This document shows positions 6,240 to 25,826 of a DNA stretch of 32,797 bases, piece by piece; positions within the stretch are counted from its first letter, which is position 1, and every line of letters begins with the position of its first letter. Origin of the DNA: Candidatus Daviesbacteria bacterium. GTDB taxonomy: Bacteria; Patescibacteriota; Microgenomatia; Daviesbacterales; UBA10151. The translations under genes were made by a program, and so were the position numbers. The DNA lies in the NCBI GenBank assembly GCA_016176405.1, contig JACOXG010000027.1:1-32797 (forward strand). The letters run 5' to 3'. The notes beneath the pieces are model-generated. The model had not been told where the DNA came from. It worked only from the letters and a program-made list of their open reading frames with translations, and ran no database searches.

Positions 6240-6278
6240 AGTGCTTTCTTTTGAAAGATAAAAAGCGGTCATGAAGTG

Positions 6279-6320
6279 TCCCCGCCAAAGGCGGGGGATC
6301 TTAAGAAAGAAAGGGGGTGA
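6279..6320 (+). promoter_or_regulatory. GC hairpin and strong Shine-Dalgarno before 6325
   Basis: CCCCGCC (6280-6286), AAA, GGCGGGG (6290-6296) forms a short hairpin. The Shine-Dalgarno AGGGGGTGA (6312-6320) follows, 4 nt before ATG 6325. The ribosome-binding site decides for start 6325 over the in-frame ATG at 6271. Confidence 0.6.
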
Positions 6321-6324
6321 AAAA

Positions 6325-7581
6325 ATGGAAATAAAAAGAAAAATTGCCGCAGCAGTGACAGCAGGTACTTTATTGTTTTCTTCATTTGCCCAAGTGGCAT
6401 TTGCAGGTACAACAATAGAAATTTCTGGTAATGGTACTAATTCTGATAATGATGCCACTATTACCACCACCAATACCACTACTGTGGTGCAAGATAATAA
6501 TGCCAATATAACAAACAAAGTTGATGTCGACGCAGATACTGGACACAACGATGCCAATGACAACACAGGTGGAGATGTTTCAATTAAGACCGGTGATGTT
6601 GATAGTGAGGTAACTGTTTCCAACACCCTCAATGTCAATTCAGCCAATGTTGATTGTTGCCCGGTAGGAGACACTGAAGTAACAATTTCTGGAAATGGAT
6701 CTAACTCAGATAACACTGCTACCTTAGATCAAACCAATAAAACAGAAGTTTACCAGGACAACAACGCCTATGTTTACAACAATGTTAAAGCTAATGGAAA
6801 CACAGGTGAAAACGATGCTGAAGACAATACCGGTGGAAGTGTCACAATAGAAACCGGTGATGTTGATACTAAGGTATCAGTCTCTACATCCGGAAATGTC
6901 AACTCCGCTCAAGTCGGAGATGGCAGTGGTGAAGGTTCCTCAGTCAGCGTATGGATCACTGATAATGGGACCAACTCTGATAATGATGTGGATCTTGATT
7001 TAAGTAACACCACATCTGTGGTTCAAGATAACAATGCCAACATCAAAAACAAGGTTGATGTCGACGCAGATACTGGACACAACGATGCCAATGACAACAC
7101 AGGTGGAGATGTATTAATTGACACTGGTGATGTTGACACTGAAGTGACTGTTGACAATATGGTCAACTTCAATGTGGCAGATGTAGACTGCCTCTGTCTC
7201 TTGTCAGATATTTTGGCAAAAATCTCTGGAAATGGTTCTGACTCTGATAATACTATCAAGGCAGAATTAGATGAGACTTTGGAAGTCTTCCAGGGTAACT
7301 GTGACGACGATGAAGGTTGGTACGGGAAATGTGCAACAGAGAATAATGTTGATGTTGATGGAGACACAGGTGAAAACGATGCTGAAGACAACACTGGTGA
7401 GCCAGAAGGGGATCCTTCTGTAGAAACCGGTGATGTTGATACAACCGTTGATCTTGAGAATTCAGGCAATGTCAACCTTTACGGTGACGAAGATCTAGGC
7501 TCTGATTTTGATTTTGACTTTGATCTAGATATTTCTCTGGATCTATCAGATCTATTAGATGCACTGCTAGATCTAGTTTAA
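6325..7581 (+). CDS. Secreted Asn/Asp/Gly-rich repeat surface protein A
   Basis: A signal peptide (MEIKRKIAAAVTAGTLLF.., probable cleavage after AFA) precedes four repeats of roughly 95 residues. Each opens with ISGNGSNSDN, continues through an N-rich DNNANI-type strand to TGxNDAxDNTGG, and closes with ETGDVDTxVxV...NVN. The pattern suggests a stacked beta structure. Repeat 1 ends in DCCP and repeat 3 in DCLC, while repeat 2 has no Cys. The C-terminus is an acidic (DF/DL)-rich tail ending SDLLDALLDLV, with no sorting signal or membrane segment, so attachment to the cell is unclear. The family is not known to me by name. A strong Shine-Dalgarno and a structured leader mark high, possibly regulated, expression. 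Confidence 0.85.
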   Translation: MEIKRKIAAAVTAGTLLFSSFAQVAFAGTTIEISGNGTNSDNDATITTTNTTTVVQDNNANITNKVDVDADTGHNDANDNTGGDVSIKTGDVDSEVTVSNTLNVNSANVDCCPVGDTEVTISGNGSNSDNTATLDQTNKTEVYQDNNAYVYNNVKANGNTGENDAEDNTGGSVTIETGDVDTKVSVSTSGNVNSAQVGDGSGEGSSVSVWITDNGTNSDNDVDLDLSNTTSVVQDNNANIKNKVDVDADTGHNDANDNTGGDVLIDTGDVDTEVTVDNMVNFNVADVDCLCLLSDILAKISGNGSDSDNTIKAELDETLEVFQGNCDDDEGWYGKCATENNVDVDGDTGENDAEDNTGEPEGDPSVETGDVDTTVDLENSGNVNLYGDEDLGSDFDFDFDLDISLDLSDLLDALLDLV

Positions 7582-7595
7582 TTTAATTTTGGGTT

Positions 7596-7636
7596 AGGGT
7601 GGTCAATATACTAGCACTTCGGTAAAAGACCACCCT
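7596..7636 (+). terminator. Hairpin between surface genes A and B
   Basis: AGGGTGGTC (7596-7604) pairs perfectly with GACCACCCT (7628-7636) around a 23-nt loop. No T-run follows, so it is a weak terminator at best. It may act as an mRNA stabiliser or processing site between genes A and B. The loop contains TATACT (7607-7612), which could be a promoter. Confidence 0.4.
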
Positions 7637-7678
7637 CCCAAAAGAAGTAAGAATTTAGAATTAAGAATTAAGGAAAAA

Positions 7679-9901
7679 ATGTTAGAAAAGTTTAGAAAAA
7701 TATTAACAATAATAACCATCATAGGATTACTCTTTTTAAGAGTAAGTCCTGCTTTGGCGCTAGAAGCACCTACTGCCCCCACCCCTCCTCCTGAACCTAC
7801 TCCACCTCCCACAGAGGTAGTTGTTTCCACCCCTCCTCCTGAACCTACTCCACCTCCTGAACCCACACTGGAAGATCCTGTTGTTAATAATGAAGACACA
7901 AATACTAATAATGATGAAACTGATGAAGATAATGAGGATGGTGATGGAGACGAGATGGATAATTCCATTTCTGCACCTCCTGGTTCATCTAATGACAACA
8001 GTTCTTCATCAGGTAATCAAACTGGCAATCAAACAGCTGATGGTCAGGTTGGGACTACCGTCATTGATACAGGTGATGCCACCAATAATGCCGGAGTGAC
8101 CACCATTGTCAATACCAATACTTCAGCTGGAATAGGGGGGACAGATACAGGTAGTATTTCAGTGATCAATTCTGACAATGGTTCAAATTCGCAAAATTCT
8201 GGCTCAGTGGAGTTTACTGATGATAATACTACCATTCAAAACAATAGCGCCACAGTCACCAATGATTTAAATCAAACCACCAATACTGGTGAAAACTCAG
8301 CTTCACAAAATGTGGGTGACTCAGAAATTAGCACAGGAGATGCCAATACTTCTGGAACTGTGGTAACCATAGTCAACACCAATATAGATGGATTGGGAAT
8401 TGCCGAATTTAGTGTGATTGATGATCATGTTGGAGATATTATCTTAGATTTTTCTGCAGGATGTGTTTATGGTTGTGAGGGGGATAGCTTATCTGCAACA
8501 AACAGTGACAACGGCACATCTTCTGATAATAACGCCTCAATTGATCAAGAAACCAACAATACCACCACCCAAACTAATGATGCAGTCATTGAAAGCAATC
8601 TCACCCTTTCATCCAATACTGGAGACAATAGCGCCGATCAAAACACCGGCGGTGATTCAACTATTAATACAGGGGATGCCAATGTGGCTGGTAATTCGGT
8701 CACACTAGCAAACAACAATATTGAGGGAGAAGTTTATATTACTTTTGTCTATATTTATGGAGATTTGGTAGGCGATATCATCTTACCTGATGACTATCTT
8801 TCAGATACTTCGTGCTCATCTTGTGGTAGTGACATTACGGCTGAAAATTCCTCTAATGGTTCAGGTTCAACCAATAATGCATCAGTTAATCAAGAAACCA
8901 ACAATACCATTATCCAATACAATGAGGTAGATATTGAAAATAATCTGATTTTAGAAGCCTCAACCGGTGATAACCAGACCAGCCAAAATACTGGTGGAGA
9001 CTCATCAATCTCAACAGGCGATACCAATGTTGAGGCCTCTGTCTTAAATGTTGCCAACACCAATACCTCAGGAGGGGATTGGTGGTTGGTATTGATCAAT
9101 GAGGCTGGAAATTGGGTTGGTCAGATTTTTGGAACAACTGACGGGGAAAATTACTCCGGATCAGAGGAGTGGGAGTTTTTGGTGGATGAAAATGGCGCAA
9201 TTACCGCTGTCAACTCCGGTAATGGCTCAGATTCTCAAAATAATGCCAATGTGTCAGAAACCACCAATAATACCACCACTCAAACCAATACAGCCACCAT
9301 TACCAATAATCTTGATTTATCTGCCAATACTGGAGGCAATTCTGCCAGTCAAAATACTGGTGGTGACTCGTCAATTGAGACAGGAGATGCCAATGTGATT
9401 GCTTCGATTATAAATTTGGTTAATAACAATATTACCGGTGGGGGGACCTTATTTGTGGTGGTGATAGATGTTTTTGGCTCCTGGGTGGGTAATTTTATTG
9501 GTCCAGGATATGAAAAAGAAGTGTTAACTGATTCTCAGAATCTGGATGAAACCACGAGTACAACTGATCCTCAAGGAGGTACAACTCCGCCGTCAGAAAG
9601 CTCTAATCAACAACAAACTACCACCACGAGCAGTAATAACAATGATGATGGAGAAGTTACGATTACCGTCTCATCAAACAGATCCTTAGGTAATATTTTA
9701 ACTGCTGGTTTGATCCAAGTGGCTGGATTTTCTCAGACAGAAAATCCCCCAAGTGCCAATGTTTTGTCTGATATGACCCAGATGAGTGTGGGAAGCAAAA
9801 AAACCATCAAGATTAATCTGGCCTGGTTAATTTTGGCAGTGCCATTTGTCCCGTTGATTTTTGTGATTAGAAGAAAGCTTCGCAAGTTTCAAACTGCCTA
9901 A
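7679..9901 (+). CDS. Large anchored Asn/Thr/Gly-rich repeat surface protein B
   Basis: The 740-residue product has a signal peptide (to about residue 28), a Pro-rich stalk (PTPPPEPTPPP repeated) and an acidic DTNTNNDETDEDNEDGDGDE segment. About five copies follow of the same repeat as its neighbours (NSDNGSNSQN .. TNTGENSASQN .. STGDANTSG). Repeats are separated by hydrophobic inserts with a recurring VG(D/Q/N)(I/F)I pattern (such as YGDLVGDIIL and FGSWVGNFIG), which the other family members lack. Two inserts carry Cys pairs (GCVYGC, CSSC). The C-terminus is a membrane segment (AWLILAVPFVPLIFV) followed by RRKLRKFQ, a stop-transfer anchor without an LPxTG motif. AAGGA 4 nt upstream serves as ribosome-binding site. 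Confidence 0.85.
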   Translation: MLEKFRKILTIITIIGLLFLRVSPALALEAPTAPTPPPEPTPPPTEVVVSTPPPEPTPPPEPTLEDPVVNNEDTNTNNDETDEDNEDGDGDEMDNSISAPPGSSNDNSSSSGNQTGNQTADGQVGTTVIDTGDATNNAGVTTIVNTNTSAGIGGTDTGSISVINSDNGSNSQNSGSVEFTDDNTTIQNNSATVTNDLNQTTNTGENSASQNVGDSEISTGDANTSGTVVTIVNTNIDGLGIAEFSVIDDHVGDIILDFSAGCVYGCEGDSLSATNSDNGTSSDNNASIDQETNNTTTQTNDAVIESNLTLSSNTGDNSADQNTGGDSTINTGDANVAGNSVTLANNNIEGEVYITFVYIYGDLVGDIILPDDYLSDTSCSSCGSDITAENSSNGSGSTNNASVNQETNNTIIQYNEVDIENNLILEASTGDNQTSQNTGGDSSISTGDTNVEASVLNVANTNTSGGDWWLVLINEAGNWVGQIFGTTDGENYSGSEEWEFLVDENGAITAVNSGNGSDSQNNANVSETTNNTTTQTNTATITNNLDLSANTGGNSASQNTGGDSSIETGDANVIASIINLVNNNITGGGTLFVVVIDVFGSWVGNFIGPGYEKEVLTDSQNLDETTSTTDPQGGTTPPSESSNQQQTTTTSSNNNDDGEVTITVSSNRSLGNILTAGLIQVAGFSQTENPPSANVLSDMTQMSVGSKKTIKINLAWLILAVPFVPLIFVIRRKLRKFQTA
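7780..7857. repeat. 30-bp direct repeat encoding the Pro stalk
   Basis: Two identical 30-bp units (7780-7809 and 7828-7857) encode TPPPEPTPPP-type sequence. Identity at DNA level points to recent duplication or slippage, so stalk length may vary between strains. Confidence 0.7.
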
Positions 9902-9943
9902 AGATCTGCCTCAAATAGCTGTCCGCAAAATATAGAAGAAATC

Positions 9944-11092
9944 ATGAAAGTCTTTATTTTTACATTGATATTGATTCTATTCGTACTAGCTCAGCCAAGC
10001 TATGCTGATGAATTGGTGATTTCTGGTAATGGCTCAGATTCCGAAAGCCAAATCTCCATCACTTCCACTTCAGAGACTAATGTGACTCAAACTAATGAGG
10101 CCAATATAGACAATAATGTTAATTTAGATGCCAATACCGGAGGAAATAGCGCCTCAGGTAATAATGGAGACGTAGAAATTACCACCGGTGATATTAACAG
10201 CCAAACCACCATTGAAAATAGTGCCAATACTTCTAATGTCTCATTAAGTTGTTGTCCTGATTCAAATCTGACTGTAGAGATTTCTGGTAATGGAGAAGAT
10301 TCCCAAAATAGTGTGGATTTGGATCAAACTTCAGATACTCAAATTAATGTTAATCAATCAGCCAATATCAAAAATAGTATTAATGGTAGTGCTAATACTG
10401 GTGGAAACAGCGCCAATGATAATAGCGGGGGAAATGTGTCTATCACAACTGGCAATATTAATGTGACAGATGAGATAAGAAATGAAAATATTAATCTGAC
10501 TAAAATTTCAGCACCCCAGGGAGATGGTAGTATTACTATCAAAATTTGGGGTAATGGATCTGATTCTCAAAATGCTGTCATTGTTAATTGGGATAATAAT
10601 TTAAATATTGATGTTAATAATAATGCGGATATTTTTAATAGTTTAGTTTGGTATTTGAATACTGGAGAAAATTCAGCTTCAGGTAATAACGGTGATGTGT
10701 CTATCTCAACCGGTGATATTAATTATTATGCCGAAATTATTAATGGGCCGATCAATCTAGTCGATATTGATATTCCTTGTTGTGTTGAAGATGGTGGCGG
10801 TCCGGGAGATGGAGATGGTGATGAAAATGAAGACGGAGATGGTGACGGTGATGGGGGTGGGGATGGGGATAATCCTCCGCCACCGAGCTCTCCGTCAAAT
10901 CCACCAAGCAATGGTGGAGGTGGGAATGGAGGTCAAGCTCAAGGAGCAGCTATAGCAGCGGTAGGACAAATCTTACCAGCCACAGGTAGTCTTTGGTTAA
11001 TTTTATTAACTTTGATAGCCATGTTAATGTTTATTTTGGGACTCTATCTGCGTCTACACCCTGGTCGTGACCCCAACCTCAAGATGAGGTAA
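9944..11092 (+). CDS. Repeat surface protein C with LPATG sortase sorting signal
   Basis: The 382-residue product has a signal peptide (cleavage near SYA/DE) and three repeats of the ISGNGSDSES .. ANTGGNSASGNNGDVEITTGD type. A Gly/Asp-rich then Pro/Ser/Gly-rich linker leads to a classical cell-wall sorting signal: LPATG (residues 344-348), a hydrophobic stretch (SLWLILLTLIAMLMFILGLYL) and a basic tail. Repeats 1 and 3 end in Cys pairs (SCCPD, PCCVED); repeat 2 does not. The next gene is a sortase, so this protein is its likely substrate, linked to a cell-wall or surface acceptor. The stop codon TAA is part of the TAAAAT box for that sortase. Confidence 0.88.
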   Translation: MKVFIFTLILILFVLAQPSYADELVISGNGSDSESQISITSTSETNVTQTNEANIDNNVNLDANTGGNSASGNNGDVEITTGDINSQTTIENSANTSNVSLSCCPDSNLTVEISGNGEDSQNSVDLDQTSDTQINVNQSANIKNSINGSANTGGNSANDNSGGNVSITTGNINVTDEIRNENINLTKISAPQGDGSITIKIWGNGSDSQNAVIVNWDNNLNIDVNNNADIFNSLVWYLNTGENSASGNNGDVSISTGDINYYAEIINGPINLVDIDIPCCVEDGGGPGDGDGDENEDGDGDGDGGGDGDNPPPPSSPSNPPSNGGGGNGGQAQGAAIAAVGQILPATGSLWLILLTLIAMLMFILGLYLRLHPGRDPNLKMR

Positions 11093-11095
11093 AAT
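11090..11095 (+). promoter_or_regulatory. -10 box (TAAAAT) overlapping the stop of gene C, for the sortase
   Basis: TAAAAT begins with the TAA stop of the LPATG gene and ends 7 nt before ATG 11103. This suggests a leaderless sortase transcript in addition to any read-through. Confidence 0.4.
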
Positions 11096-11102
11096 TCTCC
11101 TG

Positions 11103-11612
11103 ATGAGAAGGCAACTAAGTAGTTTGTTAATAATTTCTTCGCTAATACTACTCATTTTTATTTATCTGCCATTTTTAAGCGCATATTTTCCCAGCCAAAT
11201 CAACATTCCCAAAAACAGCGATTATATTGAAATTCCCAAAATTGGGGCTAAGGCGCTGATTATAGATAATGTGGATCCTTGGAATCGAGGAGAGTATGAA
11301 AAAGCCTTGGAAAAGGGAGTGGCCAAAGCTAAAGGCTTTGATAATTTTTTCTTTGCTCATTCATCTCTACCGCCTTGGAAAATGACCAGGACCAATACTG
11401 CCTTTTTAAGATTGGGAGAGCTTAAAATAGGGGATCAAATTATTATTCATCAAGATGGCACTGATTTTATCCATCAGGTAATAGATAAAAAAGAGGTTTG
11501 GCCAAATGAGGTAGATAAACTTATCACCGATCAAGATGTACTAATCCTGCAAACTTGTACCCCTTTGGGTACAGATTTTAAAAGATTGCTAATTTTCGCC
11601 AAGCCTACTTGA
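11103..11612 (+). CDS. Sortase (membrane-anchored transpeptidase)
   Basis: The 169-residue protein has an N-terminal membrane segment (residues about 7-29) and a sortase domain. That domain opens with IEIPKIGAKALI and has a catalytic His86 (FFFAHSS), Cys152 (LILQTCTP, the TLxTC-type motif) and Arg161 (FKRLLIFA), all in the expected order and spacing. Sortases cut LPxTG-type signals after Thr and join the protein to an amine acceptor. The gene lies 10 bp after an LPATG protein, so that is the obvious substrate. Length and single N-terminal anchor resemble class D/E or CPR sortases; the exact class is unsure. A stem-loop with T-tract follows. Confidence 0.9.
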   Translation: MRRQLSSLLIISSLILLIFIYLPFLSAYFPSQINIPKNSDYIEIPKIGAKALIIDNVDPWNRGEYEKALEKGVAKAKGFDNFFFAHSSLPPWKMTRTNTAFLRLGELKIGDQIIIHQDGTDFIHQVIDKKEVWPNEVDKLITDQDVLILQTCTPLGTDFKRLLIFAKPT

Positions 11613-11656
11613 TGAGGATCACCCTGGGACCTAAAGCTCAGGGTGATCCTCATTTT
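11612..11656 (+). terminator. Strong terminator between sortase and convergent gene D
   Basis: ATGAGGATCACCCTG (11612-11626) pairs perfectly over 15 bp with CAGGGTGATCCTCAT (11639-11653), followed by a short T-run (11653-11656). It closes the sortase operon. On the minus strand no T-run follows the stem, so it mainly serves plus-strand transcripts. Confidence 0.75.
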
Positions 11657-11665
11657 AAAAAGTGT

Positions 11666-12274
11666 TTATGGACTGAGCGTATTGACTCCTCCAGTTACAC
11701 TCACATCAACTGTGGTCTCGGCATTACCTGTGTCAATGGTGGTTGTACCACCAGTATTATTTCTGGCTCTATTTTTACCAGTTTTAGAGCGGGCAGAAAG
11801 GACTGATGTGGCATTGGTATCAGCCTTCTGCTTGATCTTAGAACTTTTATTTTTACTAACCACGATGGTGTTATTAGAATTGGCACCATTTTCAGAAATA
11901 GAGGCAGAAGTGGAAGCCTCGTCGCACTCACTCTCACAGCAACAAGGATTGGTGGCTGTATTTGATCCACCGGTCACACTGACAGTGACTGTGGTAGTGG
12001 CATCACCAGTATTGATTGAGACATCTCCTCCGGTATTGCCTGAGGCAGTATTCCCTCCGGTTGAGGAGGAAGCTGAGACAACGGTTGTGGCATTGGTATT
12101 ACTTTGTTGGTCAACTTCACAATTATTATTGGAGCTAACTGAAATGGTATTGTCTGAATTAACACCATTTCCGGAAATTTCCAAAGTTGTATCAGCAGAT
12201 GCCACTCCTGTTGCGAGCAGGGTAACTAAGGTAGCTGCTGCCAAAGCTGAAGCAGCTCGATATGCAATTGTCAT
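11666..12274 (-). CDS. Small secreted repeat surface protein D
   Basis: The 202-residue product has a signal peptide (MTIAYRAASALAAATLVTLL.., cleavage near ASA) and two repeats of the same kind as genes A-C (LEISGNGVNSDN .. SSTGGNTASGNTGGDVSINTGDA). Repeat 1 ends in NPCCCESECDE and repeat 2 has no Cys, matching the alternation in A and C. There is no sorting signal or anchor. The second repeat is Lys/Arg-rich (KNKSSKIKQKAD, RSKTGKNRARN), unlike the acidic relatives, so charge pairing with them is conceivable. The Shine-Dalgarno GGAGGAGGTG (12292-12283) is very strong. A long opposite frame overlaps but is a shadow. Confidence 0.85.
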   Translation of the reverse strand: MTIAYRAASALAAATLVTLLATGVASADTTLEISGNGVNSDNTISVSSNNNCEVDQQSNTNATTVVSASSSTGGNTASGNTGGDVSINTGDATTTVTVSVTGGSNTATNPCCCESECDEASTSASISENGANSNNTIVVSKNKSSKIKQKADTNATSVLSARSKTGKNRARNNTGGTTTIDTGNAETTVDVSVTGGVNTLSP

Positions 12275-13174: not shown

Positions 13175-14194
13175 ATGGGTATAAATCAAAAGGGCTCGCC
13201 TCGCGAAGTCCCGCCGAAGGCGGGCGAAGCGGGCGCAGTTCATCTTCTATTACCAGTAGCCATTGTAGTAGCTGTAGTTTTGATCAGTGCCAATGTCCAA
13301 ACTACCACTCAAGATGATAATAATATCCAGGGAGTTTTGATTGCTAAAGACGGGGAAGATAATGGTAATAGTGGTTCTTCCGGTAAGGGATCATCAAATT
13401 CAGAAAGTTCCAATAACTCTGGTTCTAATAGCAATTCTGGATCTGGAAAAAGTCAGGGAGGTCCTTCAGAGGAAGTCAGAATTAAACAGGAGATCAGGAC
13501 TTCTGATGAGAGAATCAAAACAGAAATTAGAGAGGATCTAACCAGAATAGATGTTTATCAAGGAAATACCAAGACCAGAATCCAGCAAAAGGGTAATGAG
13601 GTGATCATTAAAACTGAAATAGAGATGGAAGATGATGAAGCTAGTGAGTCTGGTGAGGAAGAAGCTAGTGGTTCAGCTGATGAAGGTGAAATTGTTCAGG
13701 AGTTAAGAGCTATCTCGAAATTTCCCTTAAGAATTGATCTTTCCACAAATCAGTTGATCATGACGAAAAATGGGGTAGAGCGAGTTTTGACTGTTTTGCC
13801 AGCCAAAGCTGTCCAAAATATGCTAAGGGCTCATCTGAAAAAAGGTCTAGGACCCAAGTTTTTCCAGGGGGCCACACCCTCTGCCACTCCTGAAGGTACT
13901 CCTTCTGCCACAGCCACTCCCTCCGGCGAACCTACCTCCACTCCTTCAGCTTCTCCTACTGAGGAGCCAATTGCCACTGAATCAGCCCAGCTGACTATTT
14001 TAGAGAGTCAAATCAGCCTTGAAGAAGATCAGGGACAAATTGTCTATAAAATTCCCGCCAAAAAACATCTTAAGGTTTTTGGTTTAATTCCAATTACCAC
14101 TGATCTGACCGGTTTTGTCTCAGCAGAAACAGGAGCATTACTTAGAGAACAGGAATCACTACTGGCCAGACTTTTGGATCTGCTCTCTCCTTAA
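13175..14194 (+). CDS. Anchored protein with Ser/Gly and Pro/Thr linkers, in-frame repeat at N-terminus
   Basis: This 339-residue protein belongs to no family I recognise. The N-terminus is MGINQKG, then 14 residues encoded by a GC-rich palindrome, then a membrane segment (VHLLLPVAIVVAVVLI). A Ser/Asn/Gly linker follows, then a charged segment with alternating pattern (EVRIKQEIRTSDERIKTEIR .. RIQQKGNEVIIKTEIEMED) that looks like an extended beta or helical repeat. After this come an acidic patch, a PTSTPSASPT linker and a C-terminal domain (KKHLKVFGLIPITTDLTGFV). The QKG-hydrophobic start matches the proteins at 23854 and 24846. It overlaps the convergent cupin gene by 4 bp. Confidence 0.75.
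   Translation: MGINQKGSPREVPPKAGEAGAVHLLLPVAIVVAVVLISANVQTTTQDDNNIQGVLIAKDGEDNGNSGSSGKGSSNSESSNNSGSNSNSGSGKSQGGPSEEVRIKQEIRTSDERIKTEIREDLTRIDVYQGNTKTRIQQKGNEVIIKTEIEMEDDEASESGEEEASGSADEGEIVQELRAISKFPLRIDLSTNQLIMTKNGVERVLTVLPAKAVQNMLRAHLKKGLGPKFFQGATPSATPEGTPSATATPSGEPTSTPSASPTEEPIATESAQLTILESQISLEEDQGQIVYKIPAKKHLKVFGLIPITTDLTGFVSAETGALLREQESLLARLLDLLSP
13196..13237. repeat. GC-rich palindrome inserted in frame near the start of the 13175 gene
   Basis: The core CCCGCC-GAA-GGCGGG (13210-13224) is a perfect hairpin flanked by TCGCGAAG and CGAAGCGGGC. The insert is 42 bp and adds SPREVPPKAGEAGA between QKG and the membrane segment. The borders are inferred by comparison with the paralogous N-termini at 23854 and 24846. 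Confidence 0.65.
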
Positions 14195-14571
14195 ATATTG
14201 ATGGTTTTACCACCTTCAGAGGTAACTATGCCCATGGCAAAATAGTTAACATCCTGATTGGAAATATTTTCAAAAGTATGAACTTGGTCCTCTTTGACAA
14301 TGAGCATGTCTCCTTTTTCTAAAATAGCTTCCTCATGATCAACTTTGACTTTCACTTTGCCATTCATAATGATAAAAACTTCAATCATTTTTTCATGGTA
14401 GTGAGGGGAAAAAGTTTTATGCCGAGGAATTTTGGCCCAATTAATCATTTGAATTCTGCCGGCAGGCAAATCATCTCTTTTAAGTAAAATCTTTTTAAAA
14501 GCCCCAGGATTTTTGGGATTCTCATGACTGGCTGGAATAAATTTTAGATCATTGAATCGAACAATCTGCAT
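14191..14571 (-). CDS. Cupin-domain protein
   Basis: This is a 126-residue single-domain cupin. Motif 1 is HYHEKMIE (His57, His59, Glu64) and motif 2 is GDMLIVKEDQVHTF (His98), so the usual three-His/one-Glu metal site is present. Such proteins are sugar isomerases, dioxygenases or small-molecule sensors; nothing here tells which. It shares a perfectly palindromic intergenic region with the divergent 14590 gene, with a TATAAT box 8 nt before its ATG. Its 3' end overlaps the 13175 gene by 4 bp. Confidence 0.85.
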   Translation of the reverse strand: MQIVRFNDLKFIPASHENPKNPGAFKKILLKRDDLPAGRIQMINWAKIPRHKTFSPHYHEKMIEVFIIMNGKVKVKVDHEEAILEKGDMLIVKEDQVHTFENISNQDVNYFAMGIVTSEGGKTINI

Positions 14572-14590
14572 AGGATATAATTATATCCTA
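14571..14590. promoter_or_regulatory. Perfect 20-bp palindrome: bidirectional leaderless promoter
   Basis: TAGGATATAATTATATCCTA is a perfect palindrome whose two outermost bases are the first base of each start codon (14571 minus, 14590 plus). Each strand carries TATAAT (14576-14581 plus; 14585-14580 minus), ending 8 nt before its ATG. The two boxes overlap by two bases. Transcription could fire only one way at a time. The palindrome could also be an operator. Confidence 0.7.
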
Positions 14591-14760
14591 TGTGTTACAA
14601 CTGTGGCTGTGGTATGCCGGATGATAATATGGGAGATCCCAGAAATATTACTGAGGAAACTATCAAAAAAGCGGCTGAGGCTTCTGGGCAAACTGTAGAG
14701 GATGCCAAGAAAAATATGTTAGAGATGCTCCAAAAACAGGCTAAGCAATCAAAAAGTTAA
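14590..14760 (+). CDS. Small Cys-containing protein (MCYNCGCGMPDD type)
   Basis: This 56-residue gene begins MCYNCGCGMPDDNMGDP, with three closely spaced Cys, and continues with ITEETIKKAAEASGQTVEDA and an amphipathic helix ending KQAKQSKS. From memory, very similar small proteins recur in Patescibacteria genomes. Function is unknown; the CxxCxC cluster could bind zinc or an iron-sulphur centre, and the rest is a helical hairpin. Coding nature is supported by the start exactly at the edge of the bidirectional promoter and by sensible codon use. It lies 22 bp before the glycosyltransferase, which has its own -10 box. Confidence 0.8.
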   Translation: MCYNCGCGMPDDNMGDPRNITEETIKKAAEASGQTVEDAKKNMLEMLQKQAKQSKS

Positions 14761-14782: not shown

Positions 14783-15985
14783 ATGCGGGTTGCTTTGATT
14801 CATGATTATTTAAAGGAATATGGAGGAGCTGAGCGGGTTTTGGAGGCTTTACATGAAATCTGGCCTAAAGCCCCTGTTTATGTGGCCTACTTTGATCCTA
14901 ATAGTTTAGGTCCGCATGCAGATAGGATCAAAAAATGGCAAATTAAGACTTCCTGGTTTCAAAAGTTCCCATTTGCCTCGCAATTGTTGTCTCCTTTCAG
15001 GTTATTTGCTCCCTTAATGTTTGAAAGCTTTGATTTATCTGAATATGATCTGGTAATTTCCTCCTGTAGCATTTATTTTTCCAAGGCTGTCATAGTTAAG
15101 CCGGAAGCTTTGCATATTAGTTATATTCATACTCCGCCCAGATATTTATATGGTTATACCACTAGCTTTAACTATAAGAAAAATCTAGTTACCAGAATTT
15201 TAGGGGAGTTAGCCAATCATATTTTAAGAATCTATGATTTTGAAGCCTCCCAAAGGCCGGATATTTTGGTAGCTAATTCCAAAGAAGTGCAAGGGAGGAT
15301 TAAAAAGTTTTATAGGAGGGATAGTATAGTGATATATCCACCAGTTTCCCTTCCTGTCATTCCGAGCGGAGCGAGGAATCTCAAGATTAAATCTAGAGAT
15401 CCTTCGTTAATCACTCAGGATGACAAAAGAACAAAAGGCTATTTTCTGTCAGTTGGAAGACTAGTTAGAGGAAAGGGGATAGATGTAATTGTTGAGGCAT
15501 GTAGTAGGTTGGGATTACCACTGAAGATAGTAGGGACAGGACCAGAAAAGAAGAATCTAGAGTCTAGAATCAAGAATCTAGGATCAAAAAACATAGAATT
15601 TTTGGGACAAGTAGAAGATAGTGAGTTACCAAAATTATATGCTGGAGCCAAAGCCACTATTGTGGCTTCAGAGGATGAAGATTTTGGCATAGTGCCGGTG
15701 GAATCTATGGCCTGCGGAACTCCGGTGATTGCCCCTAAAGCTGGTGGATTTTTGGAAACAGTCATAGATGGTCCGCCTTCGCATAAAGCTTCGGCGGGAC
15801 AAGGTAAAACTGGAATATTTTATGGTGGACTTGGACAAGTGAGTGTGGAAAGTTTAATTGAGGTGCTGAAAAACTTTGATCCAGAGAAGTTTAATCCAGA
15901 AGATTGTAGAAAACAAGCTGAAAAATTTTCCAAAAAACTATTTAAGGAGGAGATTTTGCAATTAGTGGAGAAAAATTTGACATAA
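14783..15985 (+). CDS. GT4-family glycosyltransferase with two in-frame repeat inserts
   Basis: This 400-residue GT-B fold enzyme is of the family 4 type, transferring a sugar from a nucleotide sugar to a lipid or polysaccharide at the cytoplasmic face. The N-terminal domain opens MRVALIHDYLKEYGGAERVL. The C-terminal domain opens FLSVGRLVRGKGIDVIVEA and has the E-x7-E motif (Glu299, Glu307 in EDEDFGIVPVESMACG). Two palindromic repeats interrupt it in frame: about residues 189-216 in the interdomain linker (VIPSGARNL ..), and residues 331-341 within the conserved DGKTG loop (DG-PPSHKASAGQG-KTG). Both are at surface positions and the frame is kept, so activity may survive. The acceptor is unknown. 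Confidence 0.88.
   Translation: MRVALIHDYLKEYGGAERVLEALHEIWPKAPVYVAYFDPNSLGPHADRIKKWQIKTSWFQKFPFASQLLSPFRLFAPLMFESFDLSEYDLVISSCSIYFSKAVIVKPEALHISYIHTPPRYLYGYTTSFNYKKNLVTRILGELANHILRIYDFEASQRPDILVANSKEVQGRIKKFYRRDSIVIYPPVSLPVIPSGARNLKIKSRDPSLITQDDKRTKGYFLSVGRLVRGKGIDVIVEACSRLGLPLKIVGTGPEKKNLESRIKNLGSKNIEFLGQVEDSELPKLYAGAKATIVASEDEDFGIVPVESMACGTPVIAPKAGGFLETVIDGPPSHKASAGQGKTGIFYGGLGQVSVESLIEVLKNFDPEKFNPEDCRKQAEKFSKKLFKEEILQLVEKNLT
15355..15426. repeat. Palindromic repeat (GTCATTCCGAGCGgAGCGAGGAATC type) in the glycosyltransferase
   Basis: The left arm TGTCATTCCGAGCGGAGCGA with GGAATCTC faces the right arm GAGATCCTTCG .. CAGGATGACA as an imperfect inverted repeat. The sequence type is a widespread intergenic palindrome of bacteria, here read through in frame. 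Borders are approximate. Confidence 0.7.
15771..15800. repeat. Short palindromic insert splitting the DGKTG loop of the glycosyltransferase
   Basis: GTCCGCCTTCG and CTTCGGCGGGAC (within 15771-15800) form a hairpin with a short AT-rich loop. Eleven codons separate DG from KTG, which are adjacent in family relatives, and GGT occurs on both sides like a small target duplication. Confidence 0.65.
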
Positions 15986-22909: not shown

Positions 22910-23661
22910 GTTATGGTCTGTAGTGTTCCACTACTTTTTTGGCCACATCTATTCTTTTTTCAGAACACTCACTATCATATTGAGGAGAGACAAAGATCAC
23001 TATAGCATCTGGAGAGTTGGCTGAACCGTCGGCAATTGAATCAATGTATTTGATGACAGACTCTGCGCTGGTGCAGCGGTTAGGAGGTGGATTAACAGAA
23101 ACTTGAACCCGAACTTTCTGTTGGCCAATATATGGTCTAATTTTTCCAATTAGATCTTTAACAGTGGAGGCATACTCATCCACACTTAGGGAATCCTGAT
23201 ACCTTTGAGTTTGATAGGCAATAATATCTGCATTTCTCACTAAGGCATAATCAGAATATGCATATTTATCCTCAAGTTGTCTACCAGTGGGTCCAAAGGT
23301 AAAAGTTAAGCCGCGATCTTTAGCCATCTGATATTGTTCTTTTTGCTCAGAGATCACATAATCAATGTCATTGTCCTCAATATTGGAGGTAACTGTCCAA
23401 CCATTGGTCTTGGCAGTATCCATACTTTTGGTGGGATTATTAGGATCTATGAATAAAACTCTAGTTCCCTTAGCAGAACTGGCAGAATTAAGAATAGAGG
23501 TGTTTCCCAAGACTAAATCAGTATCTTTGGCTCTCTCATTCCACCAAGATATATTAGATGAATCAACAGCCATACCAATGGCAGCTGGACCCCTGACGGA
23601 AGGAGCTGGTGTGGGGGTAGGGGTGGGGGTGGGAGCCGGAGTTGGGGTGGGTGGGGGTTTG

Positions 23662-23760
23662 GGAGGTCTTCTCCACCAGGGAGGAATAATTCTTCTGGCA
23701 GCTTCAGAGATTGGTTTGGGAAAAAGTTGAGAGAAGATATTATCTTTAAAGTCAAATAAG
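23662..23760. repeat. 99-bp block identical to 25714-25812
   Basis: Positions 23662-23760 and 25714-25812 are identical base for base, while the flanking coding sequence of paralogues 1 and 3 is clearly diverged. This points to recent gene conversion or recombination. Confidence 0.85.
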
Positions 23761-23768
23761 CAAATAAG
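23753..23768. repeat. 8-bp tandem duplication causing the frameshift
   Basis: CAAATAAG occurs twice in tandem (23753-23760, 23761-23768). Its first copy is the last 8 bp of a 99-bp block identical to paralogue 3. Confidence 0.85.
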
Positions 23769-23871
23769 CCTGAGGCCAAAAGAAATAGGATAATTCCCAC
23801 TGCGGCAATAATAATTAAAGGTGATAACTGGAATATTCCTTTTTGATTATGCATTTTAGAGAGTTTAAAAA

Positions 23872-24846
23872 CTAACGGTAATGATCAACCACTTGTTTCA
23901 TCACATCAACTCTTTTTTCAGAGCATTGAGAGTCATATTCAGAAGAGACAAAGATATTAAGGGCATCAGGAGAGTTGGCAGAGCCATCAAAGATAGAGTC
24001 AATATATTGAATGACTTTTTCTGCTGTGGTACAACGATTAGCTGGAGGATTAACTGAAACTTGGACCCAGACTTGTTTTTTAACAAGATATGGTCTAATT
24101 TTCCCAATCAGATCTTTGACATAGGTAGCATAATCTGAGACAGAAAAACCTGAGTAATCTTGCCGGCGTTGGGTTTGATAGATCATAATGTCTGCATTTC
24201 TAAGTAAGGCATAATCTTGATCTGCATAATCATCCTCCAGCATTCTGCCTGTTGGTCCAAAGATAAAAGTTAAACCGCGATCTTTGGCCATTTGGTAGTG
24301 TTCTTTTTCTTTAGATAAAACATAGTTTAAATCTGGATCTTCAACATTTGTGGTGACCAACCAACCATTGGCTTTGGCTTCATCCATACCAGATACTGGA
24401 TTATCAGGATTAGCAAATAATACCCTGACTCCTTTAGCAGAGCTTAAAGTTTTAAGTGCGCCGGAAGATCCTAAGACTAAATCAGATGAGAGAGCCTTAG
24501 TATTCCACCAGTCTACGTTAGTAGACGAACCAAGACCTGGACCAATAGGGAAGGTACCAGTACTTGGAGGGGCTGTGGGACCAGGAGTAGATGTTGGGAC
24601 GGGAGCGGGAGTTGGGGTAGGAGTTGGTGATGGAGGAGGTCTCCAACGCCGCCACCAAGGATGAATAATTCTTCTGGCTGCTTCAGAGACTTCTTTGGGG
24701 AATATTTTAGCAAATACACTATCTTTAAAATCTCCTGAGGCAGCCAGTAGGATAAAGGCAATCACACCTACTGCGGCAATCAGTATGAGGGGTGATAAAT
24801 GAACTAATCCTTTTTGTCCCAACGAAGTTGGGTTATTTTTCTTCAT
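23872..24846 (-). CDS. Secreted tandem paralogue 2, intact
   Basis: The 324-residue product starts MKKNNPTSLGQKGLVHLSPL with a hydrophobic segment (LILIAAVGVIAFILLAASG), then FKDSVFAKIFPKEVSEAARR and a basic WWRRWRPPPSP stretch. A Pro/Thr linker leads to a ~210-residue domain opening VDWWNTKALSSDLVLG. Recurrent motifs are NVEDPDLNYVL, HYQMAKDRGLTFIFGPTGR, LLRNADIMIYQTQRRQD and VWVQVSVNPPANRCTTAEK. The alternation of strands and helices suggests a TIM-barrel-like, perhaps glycoside-hydrolase-like, fold, but no catalytic pair can be named. The two Cys (NRCT, SQCSEKR) could form a disulphide outside the cell. Confidence 0.75.
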   Translation of the reverse strand: MKKNNPTSLGQKGLVHLSPLILIAAVGVIAFILLAASGDFKDSVFAKIFPKEVSEAARRIIHPWWRRWRPPPSPTPTPTPAPVPTSTPGPTAPPSTGTFPIGPGLGSSTNVDWWNTKALSSDLVLGSSGALKTLSSAKGVRVLFANPDNPVSGMDEAKANGWLVTTNVEDPDLNYVLSKEKEHYQMAKDRGLTFIFGPTGRMLEDDYADQDYALLRNADIMIYQTQRRQDYSGFSVSDYATYVKDLIGKIRPYLVKKQVWVQVSVNPPANRCTTAEKVIQYIDSIFDGSANSPDALNIFVSSEYDSQCSEKRVDVMKQVVDHYR

Positions 24847-24851
24847 ATAAA

Positions 24852-25826
24852 CTAACGGTAATGATCAACCACTTGTTTCATCACATCAACTCTAGTTGGT
24901 TGTCCTTTGGAGACACAATTACCGTCACCTTTTCTATCTACTCCACTATCATATTGAGAAGAGACAAAAATGACTATGGTATCAGCATAAGGCTGTGATC
25001 CGCTGACAATAGAATCAATATACTTGATCACTTGATCAGCAGTGGTGCATCTGTTGGCTGGTGGATTGGCTGAAAGTTGAACCCAGACCTTTTGTTGTCC
25101 AATATATGGCTTAATTTTTGATATTAAATCTTTAACTTTAGAAGCAAATGTAGAAGCATATTTGGAGGAATCTGAGGTTCCCAGCTCTGTTGAGTTATCC
25201 TGAAAATGTTGGGCTTGATAGGCAATAATATCTGCATTTCTAACTAAGGCATGATCTTGACCTTGATAAGTATAATCCCATTCATCTTCAAGCTGAATGC
25301 CTGTTGGACCATTGACGAATGTAAGTCCCCGATCTTTGGCCATCTGATATTGTTCTTTTATTCCTATGACAGTATTACCATCCCTGTCAACCCCTCCTCC
25401 AATCACCAGATCAATATTTGGATCTTCAATATTGGCAGTCACATAGCTCCAACCTTTAGATTTGGCAGTATCCATATCAGAGGAGGGATTAGTGGGAGAA
25501 ATCAGCATGACTCTCCCTCCTTTGGCAGAAGAGACAGAACTTAGAGTATAGGAAACTCCTATCACAATATCAGAAGATTGGGCTTTAGAATTCCACCAAT
25601 CTAAGTTGCTTGAATCAACACCTATCACAAGAGGAAATTGGCCTGAGACAGGAGTTGGGGTGGGAGTAGGTGTAGCAGTAGGAGCTGGAGTTGGGCTAGG
25701 TTTAGGACTGGGTGGAGGTCTTCTCCACCAGGGAGGAATAATTCTTCTGGCAGCTTCAGAGATTGGTTTGGGAAAAAGTTGAGAGAAGATATTATCTTTA
25801 AAGTCAAATAAGAGAACATAAAACAA
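24852..25826 (-). CDS. Secreted tandem paralogue 3, N-terminally shortened
   Basis: This has the same domain plan as paralogue 2 (FKDNIFSQLFPKPISEAARR, WWRRPP, PTPTPTP linker, domain opening VDSSNLDWWNSKAQSSDIVI). It has longer loops, including GGGVDRDGNTVIG and STELGTSDSSKYAS, and a lengthened C-terminal Cys loop (GVDRKGDGNCVSKGQ). The QKG-membrane N-terminus of its paralogues is missing. The frame begins at a TTG (25826) with only a few hydrophobic residues (MFYVLLFDF), so export is doubtful. Homology to paralogue 1 stops exactly at CTTATTTG. It is 15 bp after DUF5654 and 5 bp before paralogue 2. Confidence 0.65.
   Translation of the reverse strand: MFYVLLFDFKDNIFSQLFPKPISEAARRIIPPWWRRPPPSPKPSPTPAPTATPTPTPTPVSGQFPLVIGVDSSNLDWWNSKAQSSDIVIGVSYTLSSVSSAKGGRVMLISPTNPSSDMDTAKSKGWSYVTANIEDPNIDLVIGGGVDRDGNTVIGIKEQYQMAKDRGLTFVNGPTGIQLEDEWDYTYQGQDHALVRNADIIAYQAQHFQDNSTELGTSDSSKYASTFASKVKDLISKIKPYIGQQKVWVQLSANPPANRCTTADQVIKYIDSIVSGSQPYADTIVIFVSSQYDSGVDRKGDGNCVSKGQPTRVDVMKQVVDHYR

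Follow-up and report, generated by a model that had tools for sequence, protein, structure and literature searches.

A symmetric site between two divergent start codons, probably a minimal bidirectional promoter of near-leaderless genes, recurs within its bacterial class

We analyzed a stretch of 32,797 nucleotides (the window), which is contig C9 in a 953-kb genome of Candidatus Daviesbacteria, and found that only 18 bp separate the start codons of two divergent genes in it. These 18 bp probably form a minimal bidirectional promoter of the sigma-70 type, near-leaderless in both directions and recurrent in the class. A first-pass annotation had described a symmetric bidirectional promoter serving two leaderless genes. 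Comparison of genomes supports such a promoter for two leaderless or near-leaderless genes, as the core and its spacing are kept in all three relatives that carry the gene pair and the arrangement recurs elsewhere.

The site lies between a cupin gene (Cupin_2, 126 aa; 14191-14571, minus strand), whose start codon occupies 14571-14569, and a gene for a Cys-rich small protein of 56 aa (MCYNCGCG...; 14590-14760, plus strand). A GT4-type glycosyltransferase gene (14783-15985, plus strand) is next downstream of the Cys-rich gene. For the Cys-rich protein, no Pfam family scored above its cut-off, and NCBIfam gave no match. In a cupin scan of genome contigs (21 loci), the nearest relatives with named records belonged to Candidatus Daviesbacteria, Patescibacteria, and the viral contigs scanned with the cupin alignment yielded no relative. 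Two other gene groups of the window were recorded. Four adjacent genes at 6271-12274 (three on the plus strand, one on the minus strand) carry long repeats of the GNGSxSDN...NTGxNxAxxNTGG type; an LPATG-like motif lies close to the end of the third, after which comes, at 11103-11612, a gene that we take to be sortase-like. At 22911-25826, three similar consecutive minus-strand genes encode a proline-rich linker and then a domain with NPPxNRCT-like motifs, and look like tandem duplicates.

The perfect palindrome at the site is 24 bp long (CATAGGATATAATTATATCCTATG, 14569-14592) and contains both ATG codons. It had been described as a 20-bp palindrome running between the first bases of the two ATGs; that 20-mer, TAGGATATAATTATATCCTA, is indeed present at 14571-14590, and the symmetry extends beyond it. 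The window contains no other match to the 20-mer with up to 3 mismatches (shuffles expect 0). Each strand has, as had also been noted, a TATAAT 8 nt 5' of its ATG, at 14576-14581 (plus strand, Cys-rich gene) and 14580-14585 (minus strand, cupin gene). The two putative -10 boxes have bases 14580-14581 in common, which are the last two of each TATAAT, on opposite strands. The 18 bp between the ATGs thus consist of a 10-bp core, TATAATTATA (14576-14585), and 4 bases on each side. The TAA contained in TATAAT shares the frame of the ATG on both strands, their first bases lying 12 nt apart, and an upstream start is therefore impossible for either reading frame. A Shine-Dalgarno sequence is absent before the Cys-rich ATG, and the cupin side is identical by symmetry. 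A promoter scan gave a candidate -35 element, TTGAAT, at 14552-14557 in the plus direction, with an 18-bp spacer and within the cupin reading frame. Its TTGAA is kept in all four orthologous loci, which is weak evidence for a -35 element because the position is in coding sequence. No recognisable -35 element was found in the cupin direction.

In the mechanism we propose, an RNA polymerase of the sigma-70 type would recognise either box, open the AT-rich core and face either way. In each direction, the first transcribed base would be the A of the ATG or one no more than about 2 nt away. With boxes overlapping in this way, the predicted start sites are 15 bp apart by the standard box-to-start distance, or 19 bp apart if both are at the ATG. 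The mRNAs would be leaderless, one encoding the cupin and the other the Cys-rich protein, with the glycosyltransferase next downstream. Firing in both directions, the start sites and leaderless translation are what we infer from the sequence. Two polymerases would not be able to occupy the site together.

To follow the site in related genomes, as the first-pass annotation had advised, we searched the family with the pattern of the site, allowing two mismatches. Matches were found in 13 of 45 genomes (the order-level genome set comprises the same 45), and only the four cupin/Cys-rich loci were kept as divergent pairs. Five matches (L017, L018, L022, L026 and L029) were dropped as background, being one single coding stretch, presumably an SbcC-like gene, and not a divergent pair. 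Also dropped were L020 and L023, which lie within another coding stretch, and L019, L024 and L025, where no more than one side opens a long frame. The Cys-rich gene itself was found in 14 of the 45 genomes. The cupin and Cys-rich genes are divergent, with ATGs exactly 18 nt apart, in four of them (G000, G042, G043 and G027); the search thus located three relatives with the pair and the 18-nt gap. These four loci, from three genera, are all the orthologous loci in the data.

Across the four loci, none of the 10 core positions varied and 4 of the 8 flanking positions did (the chance of all four variable sites falling in the flanks is 0.02). In the neighbouring codons, third positions varied at 17 of 24 sites in the cupin gene and 7 of 13 in the Cys-rich gene. 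All four outer pairs are symmetric at the locus of the window; in the three orthologues, 3, 3 and 2 of the 4 pairs are. The expectation that symmetry would be conserved in orthologous regions holds for the core, its spacing and the ATGs, and fails for the outer bases. The kept unit comprises the two boxes, the way they overlap and the spacing that separates them from both ATGs; it does not include the perfect outer palindrome. With half of the eight flanking bases variable, the perfect outer symmetry is mostly incidental, and a strict palindrome as the conserved unit is ruled out.

We then examined how genes start in these genomes, using parts of seven genomes, five from the family and two from family f5, with 1595 genes in all. 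Gene calls were crude for this sample and for the -35, pyrimidine, palindrome and compact-pair statistics below, taking the longest open reading frames of at least 210 bases (240 in one of the analyses) from their first ATG. A -10-like hexamer was found 5-10 nt 5' of the ATG in 395 of the 1595 genes, about a quarter, and an SD-like motif in 195; both were present in 13. Among the 342 genes from the genome of the window, exact TATAAT occurred 28 times at 6-9 nt before the ATG versus 7 times over the twenty positions 20-39. The 8-nt distance on each side of the site is within this peak. With a set of twelve hexamers, the reversed-hexamer control was also raised at 6-9 nt (44 vs 75), which indicates that AT-rich composition makes part of the peak and that exact TATAAT and the -35 test are cleaner measures. 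In the latter, a TTGACA-like sequence (at least 4 of 6 matches) at a 17-bp spacer was found in 66 of 321 leaderless-type promoters versus 9 for the reversed hexamer. When promoters at distance 8 were taken by themselves, the -35 signal was weak (7 vs 4 of 57). Relative to the box, T at -5, T at -3 and G at -2 were enriched in the 321 promoters, and similarly in those without a CAT nearby. A pyrimidine directly preceded the ATG in 224 of 303 leaderless-like genes, compared with 55 of 111 genes with a Shine-Dalgarno sequence (Fisher test, 6e-6) and 703 of 1086 genes with neither (0.003). Such a preference would be expected of transcripts that begin with the A of the ATG.

The first-pass annotation knew of no symmetric divergent promoter reduced to this limit. 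The site is not a one-off, and its geometry occurs at six gene pairs in the class. The pattern CAT-N4-TATAATTATA-N4-ATG was present in 13 of 373 class genomes; the backward-pattern control gave 8 matches, all of them in 2 genomes. Twelve of the 13 matches were exactly between two divergent open reading frames of at least 55 aa, and these 12 loci represent six unrelated gene pairs. Besides cupin/Cys-rich, the pairs, as assigned by Pfam, are DHH/nucleoside-kinase-like, TIM/UvrD, alanyl-tRNA synthetase (AlaRS)/NAD(P)H-hydrate dehydratase, transaldolase with a partner that has no Pfam match, and HD/HicB-like. Pfam supported 9 of the 10 non-cupin partners scanned. Of the 72 genomes of family f5, 9 have the geometry; the ninth, G405, again has a UvrD-like/TIM-like pair, as judged by eye. 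The thirteenth class match, in G137, was one-sided, with frames of 91 aa and 21 aa, and was not counted. The match at that locus (L140, 1501-1524), CATATGTTATAATTATAACATATG, lies before the 91-aa gene and is itself a perfect 24-bp palindrome, the second with this core and spacing, and a divergent 350-aa gene begins about 70 nt farther off.

Compact divergent pairs are not limited to this geometry. In the seven genome samples, 50 of 247 divergent pairs could be drawn with 8-45 nt between the ATGs and with many box offsets, a count that favours short gaps because the closest ATG pair was picked. The window has one more such site, chosen in the same way, at 2105-2124 (no strand assigned). Its ATGs are also 18 nt apart, and TATACT (plus strand) and TATGAT (minus strand) are each 10 nt from their ATG. 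The boxes face each other across a 2-bp gap, and the site is not palindromic.

Other spacings between core and start codons were searched as well. With 2 bases on each side (2/2) the core occurred in none of the 373 class genomes, and spacings of 3/3 and 5/5 occurred in none of the 72 genomes of family f5. Within f5, the 3/4 spacing was found in 3 of 72 genomes, two of which represent one gene pair, and the 4/5 spacing in 2 of 72. One of the two 4/5 matches, L191, was rejected as one-sided, having a 15-aa frame on one side. Counted by gene pair, family f5 has five pairs with 4/4, two with 3/4, one with 4/5 and none with 3/3 or 5/5. These counts are small, and 4/4 was the starting pattern, but five of its six pairs were found only after it had been chosen. 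The commonest box-to-ATG distance of single promoters is 6 nt, yet the matching 2/2 spacing is absent; the expectation that 2/2 would be at least as frequent as 4/4 is contradicted by its 0 of 373.

In the 4/4 arrangement, the T of each CAT is five bases 5' of the opposite box, a position at which 57% of leaderless promoters carry a T, and a 3/3 arrangement would set it where T is rare (20%). A T at promoter position -17 is a possible reason for the favoured 4/4 spacing. This idea accounts for the poor showing of 3/3 and does not account for the absent 2/2. A more far-reaching proposal, which we offer tentatively and think somewhat unlikely, is that the start codons belong to the promoter. The T of each CAT, at the T-preferred position -17, would aid the opposite promoter, and the 18-nt geometry would be selected as one unit, arising repeatedly between unrelated genes and making up a distinct promoter class in these bacteria.

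A different explanation is that the palindrome mainly binds a dimeric regulator overlying the promoter and that its symmetry is kept for that protein. A perfect 24-bp palindrome over two promoters has the look of a classic operator, the outer pairs are kept at 3-4 of 4 in G000, G042 and G043, and all four orthologues retain, on both strands, the G two bases 5' of TATAAT. That conserved G also fits a G at -2 in 47% of the 321 leaderless promoters, and this general preference may explain part of the outer symmetry. The outer arms vary at 4 of 8 positions around an invariant core. With one representative taken for each of the five other gene pairs, 4 of 20 outer pairs were symmetric versus 5.3 expected, which is chance level and shows that a strict palindrome is not what recurs. 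Nor were repeats of a regulon seen: in 361 kb of the genome, the closest other site has 3 mismatches. The arms are thus not conserved beyond what the promoters need, and we consider a regulator-binding role as the main function of the palindrome unlikely.

Length alone says little about the palindrome. Four perfect palindromes of at least 24 bp were found in 360,936 bases sampled from the genome of the window, versus 0.04 expected for independent bases, so the length is not unique and proves little. Among the listed palindromes of at least 18 bp in these approximately 361 kb, only 14569-14592 is centred on TATAATTATA. Once the two boxes and two start codons are taken as given, 4 base pairs of symmetry remain, with a chance of about 0.005. 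A perfect palindrome of 34 bp, CACCTCCGAGGTGTGAGCTCACACCTCGGAGGTG, with an SD-like GGAGGTG, was seen at L047 (7137-7170, G000).

Alternatively, a single direction could use the site, the other gene having a leader and a promoter inside the neighbouring frame. The candidate -35 element, present in the plus direction only, would fit this. Against it, neither ATG has a Shine-Dalgarno sequence before it, all six gene pairs have a perfect TATAAT box at the same distance on each side, and promoter-like sites near the locus are not in excess (3 found in the scan vs 2.4 expected). The Cys-rich copies also speak against it, as a near -10 box takes the place of the Shine-Dalgarno sequence in some of them. 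In 9 of the 14 copies a Shine-Dalgarno sequence is present and there is no -10 box at leaderless distance; in the other 5, TATAAT is located 7-8 nt 5' of the ATG and there is no Shine-Dalgarno sequence. These five are the four divergent copies with the 18-nt gap and the copy in G017, which has a divergent open reading frame 39 nt away. In G001 and G018, the Shine-Dalgarno sequence is retained despite a divergent open reading frame 40 and 62 nt away, respectively, which argues against a simple rule of either Shine-Dalgarno or -10. We therefore judge use in one direction to be improbable, about as much so as the regulator-binding role. That an AT-rich spacer became palindromic by accident is highly improbable: long perfect palindromes do occur, as the four in 361 kb attest, but core and spacing are conserved in 4 of 4 loci and the geometry is found at other gene starts, the 13 of 373 genomes standing against 0 for 2/2.

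Returning to a bidirectional promoter, we compared 29 cupin loci. The start was missing for L069, L070, L075 and L076, the frame of L063 was not a cupin, and none of these was used in the argument. In G005, G028, G033 and G015, the cupin gene is directly divergent from the glycosyltransferase gene, with no Cys-rich gene between them. The gap between the two in G033 is 22 nt, with ATGATATCAT at its centre, 6 nt from each ATG. This sequence contains symmetric overlapping TATCAT boxes that have their first two bases in common. One cupin thus has two differently built, compact and symmetric putative promoters in sister lineages. Two further loci were recorded alongside these. Upstream of the cupin gene at L054 (G028), about 28 bases, tcctgagcgaccgaagggagtcgaagga, which look like an inserted repeat, separate the cupin promoter from the glycosyltransferase start. 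At L105 (17394-17430, G041), a 35-nt divergent gap contains CACCTCCGAGGTG, with GAGGTG, a motif resembling a ribosome site, on both strands; it is perhaps the Shine-Dalgarno counterpart of the shared symmetric site.

Bidirectional promoters have been described by Warman, Forrest, Wade, Grainger and colleagues in E. coli, Salmonella and other bacteria as pseudo-symmetric DNA in which reciprocally overlapping -10 elements drive divergent transcription (PMC10268837 and PMC12825309, both in excerpt). In the excerpt of PMC10268837 they are defined by start sites 7-25 bp apart; in that of PMC12825309 the spacing is most often 18 bp, also 10 and 23, with small variation allowed. The present site is similar in that TATAAT boxes on opposite strands overlap reciprocally, here by 2 bp, and its start codons, 19 bp apart, are compatible with the 7-25 bp range. 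Its predicted 15-bp configuration by the standard distance falls outside the E. coli optima of 18, 10 and 23 and speaks against the reading to some degree, although the value would be 19 bp if both starts were at the ATG. Only the last two bases of the boxes overlap. It also differs from these promoters in that both products are protein-coding, the start codons are at the expected transcription starts and the whole intergenic region is 18 bp. The first-pass annotation had further proposed that the two genes are transcribed in a mutually exclusive manner. At most a steric form of exclusion would apply here: for five E. coli bidirectional promoters, the excerpted text of PMC12825309 reports that competition does not arise because basal activity is too low, and that interference is limited to strong activation of one direction. 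A switch by mutual exclusion is not supported and should not be assumed for this site.

Leaderless genes with an adjacent -10 element have been reported, in the portions of the papers at hand, for Deinococcus-Thermus (PMC12340547), many bacteria (PMC3160421) and, among actinobacteria, M. tuberculosis (PMC3898074). In Deinococcus-Thermus, the -10 motif lies approximately 6-7 bp before the open reading frame and is subject to spacing requirements, the Shine-Dalgarno sequence is absent and a -35 element is optional but enhancing (PMC12340547, in part). The site described here is alike in that, on both sides, a -10 box precedes the start codon by a few bp, a distance typical of the genome, and a Shine-Dalgarno sequence is absent. 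A figure legend in the M. tuberculosis study refers to juxtaposed divergent promoters and to a divergent pair, prpD/Rv1129c, whose two mRNAs are leaderless (PMC3898074). The leaderless elements in these portions are one-directional or separate divergent promoters; here, by contrast, two appear to be fused in one core. The word "leaderless" does not occur in PMC12825309 (0 occurrences), and neither "bidirectional" nor "divergent" is present in the text of PMC12340547. Among the matches listed, by title, for leaderless with bidirectional or divergent promoters, or with Patescibacteria or the Candidate Phyla Radiation, none was on fused leaderless pairs in this group. The site is best read as the known bidirectional promoter in a minimal, leaderless form that recurs in this class.

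Read in this way, the site joins bidirectional promoters and leaderless genes at the lower limit of size. Almost all that is required for starting two genes should fit in its 18 bp, which leave no space for leaders or ribosome sites. Its recurrence between unrelated genes in Patescibacteria offers a natural series in which to ask what minimum of DNA a promoter pair needs and why one spacing is favoured. It also bears on how divergent housekeeping genes share RNA polymerase in tiny genomes, a setting in which transcription has received little study.
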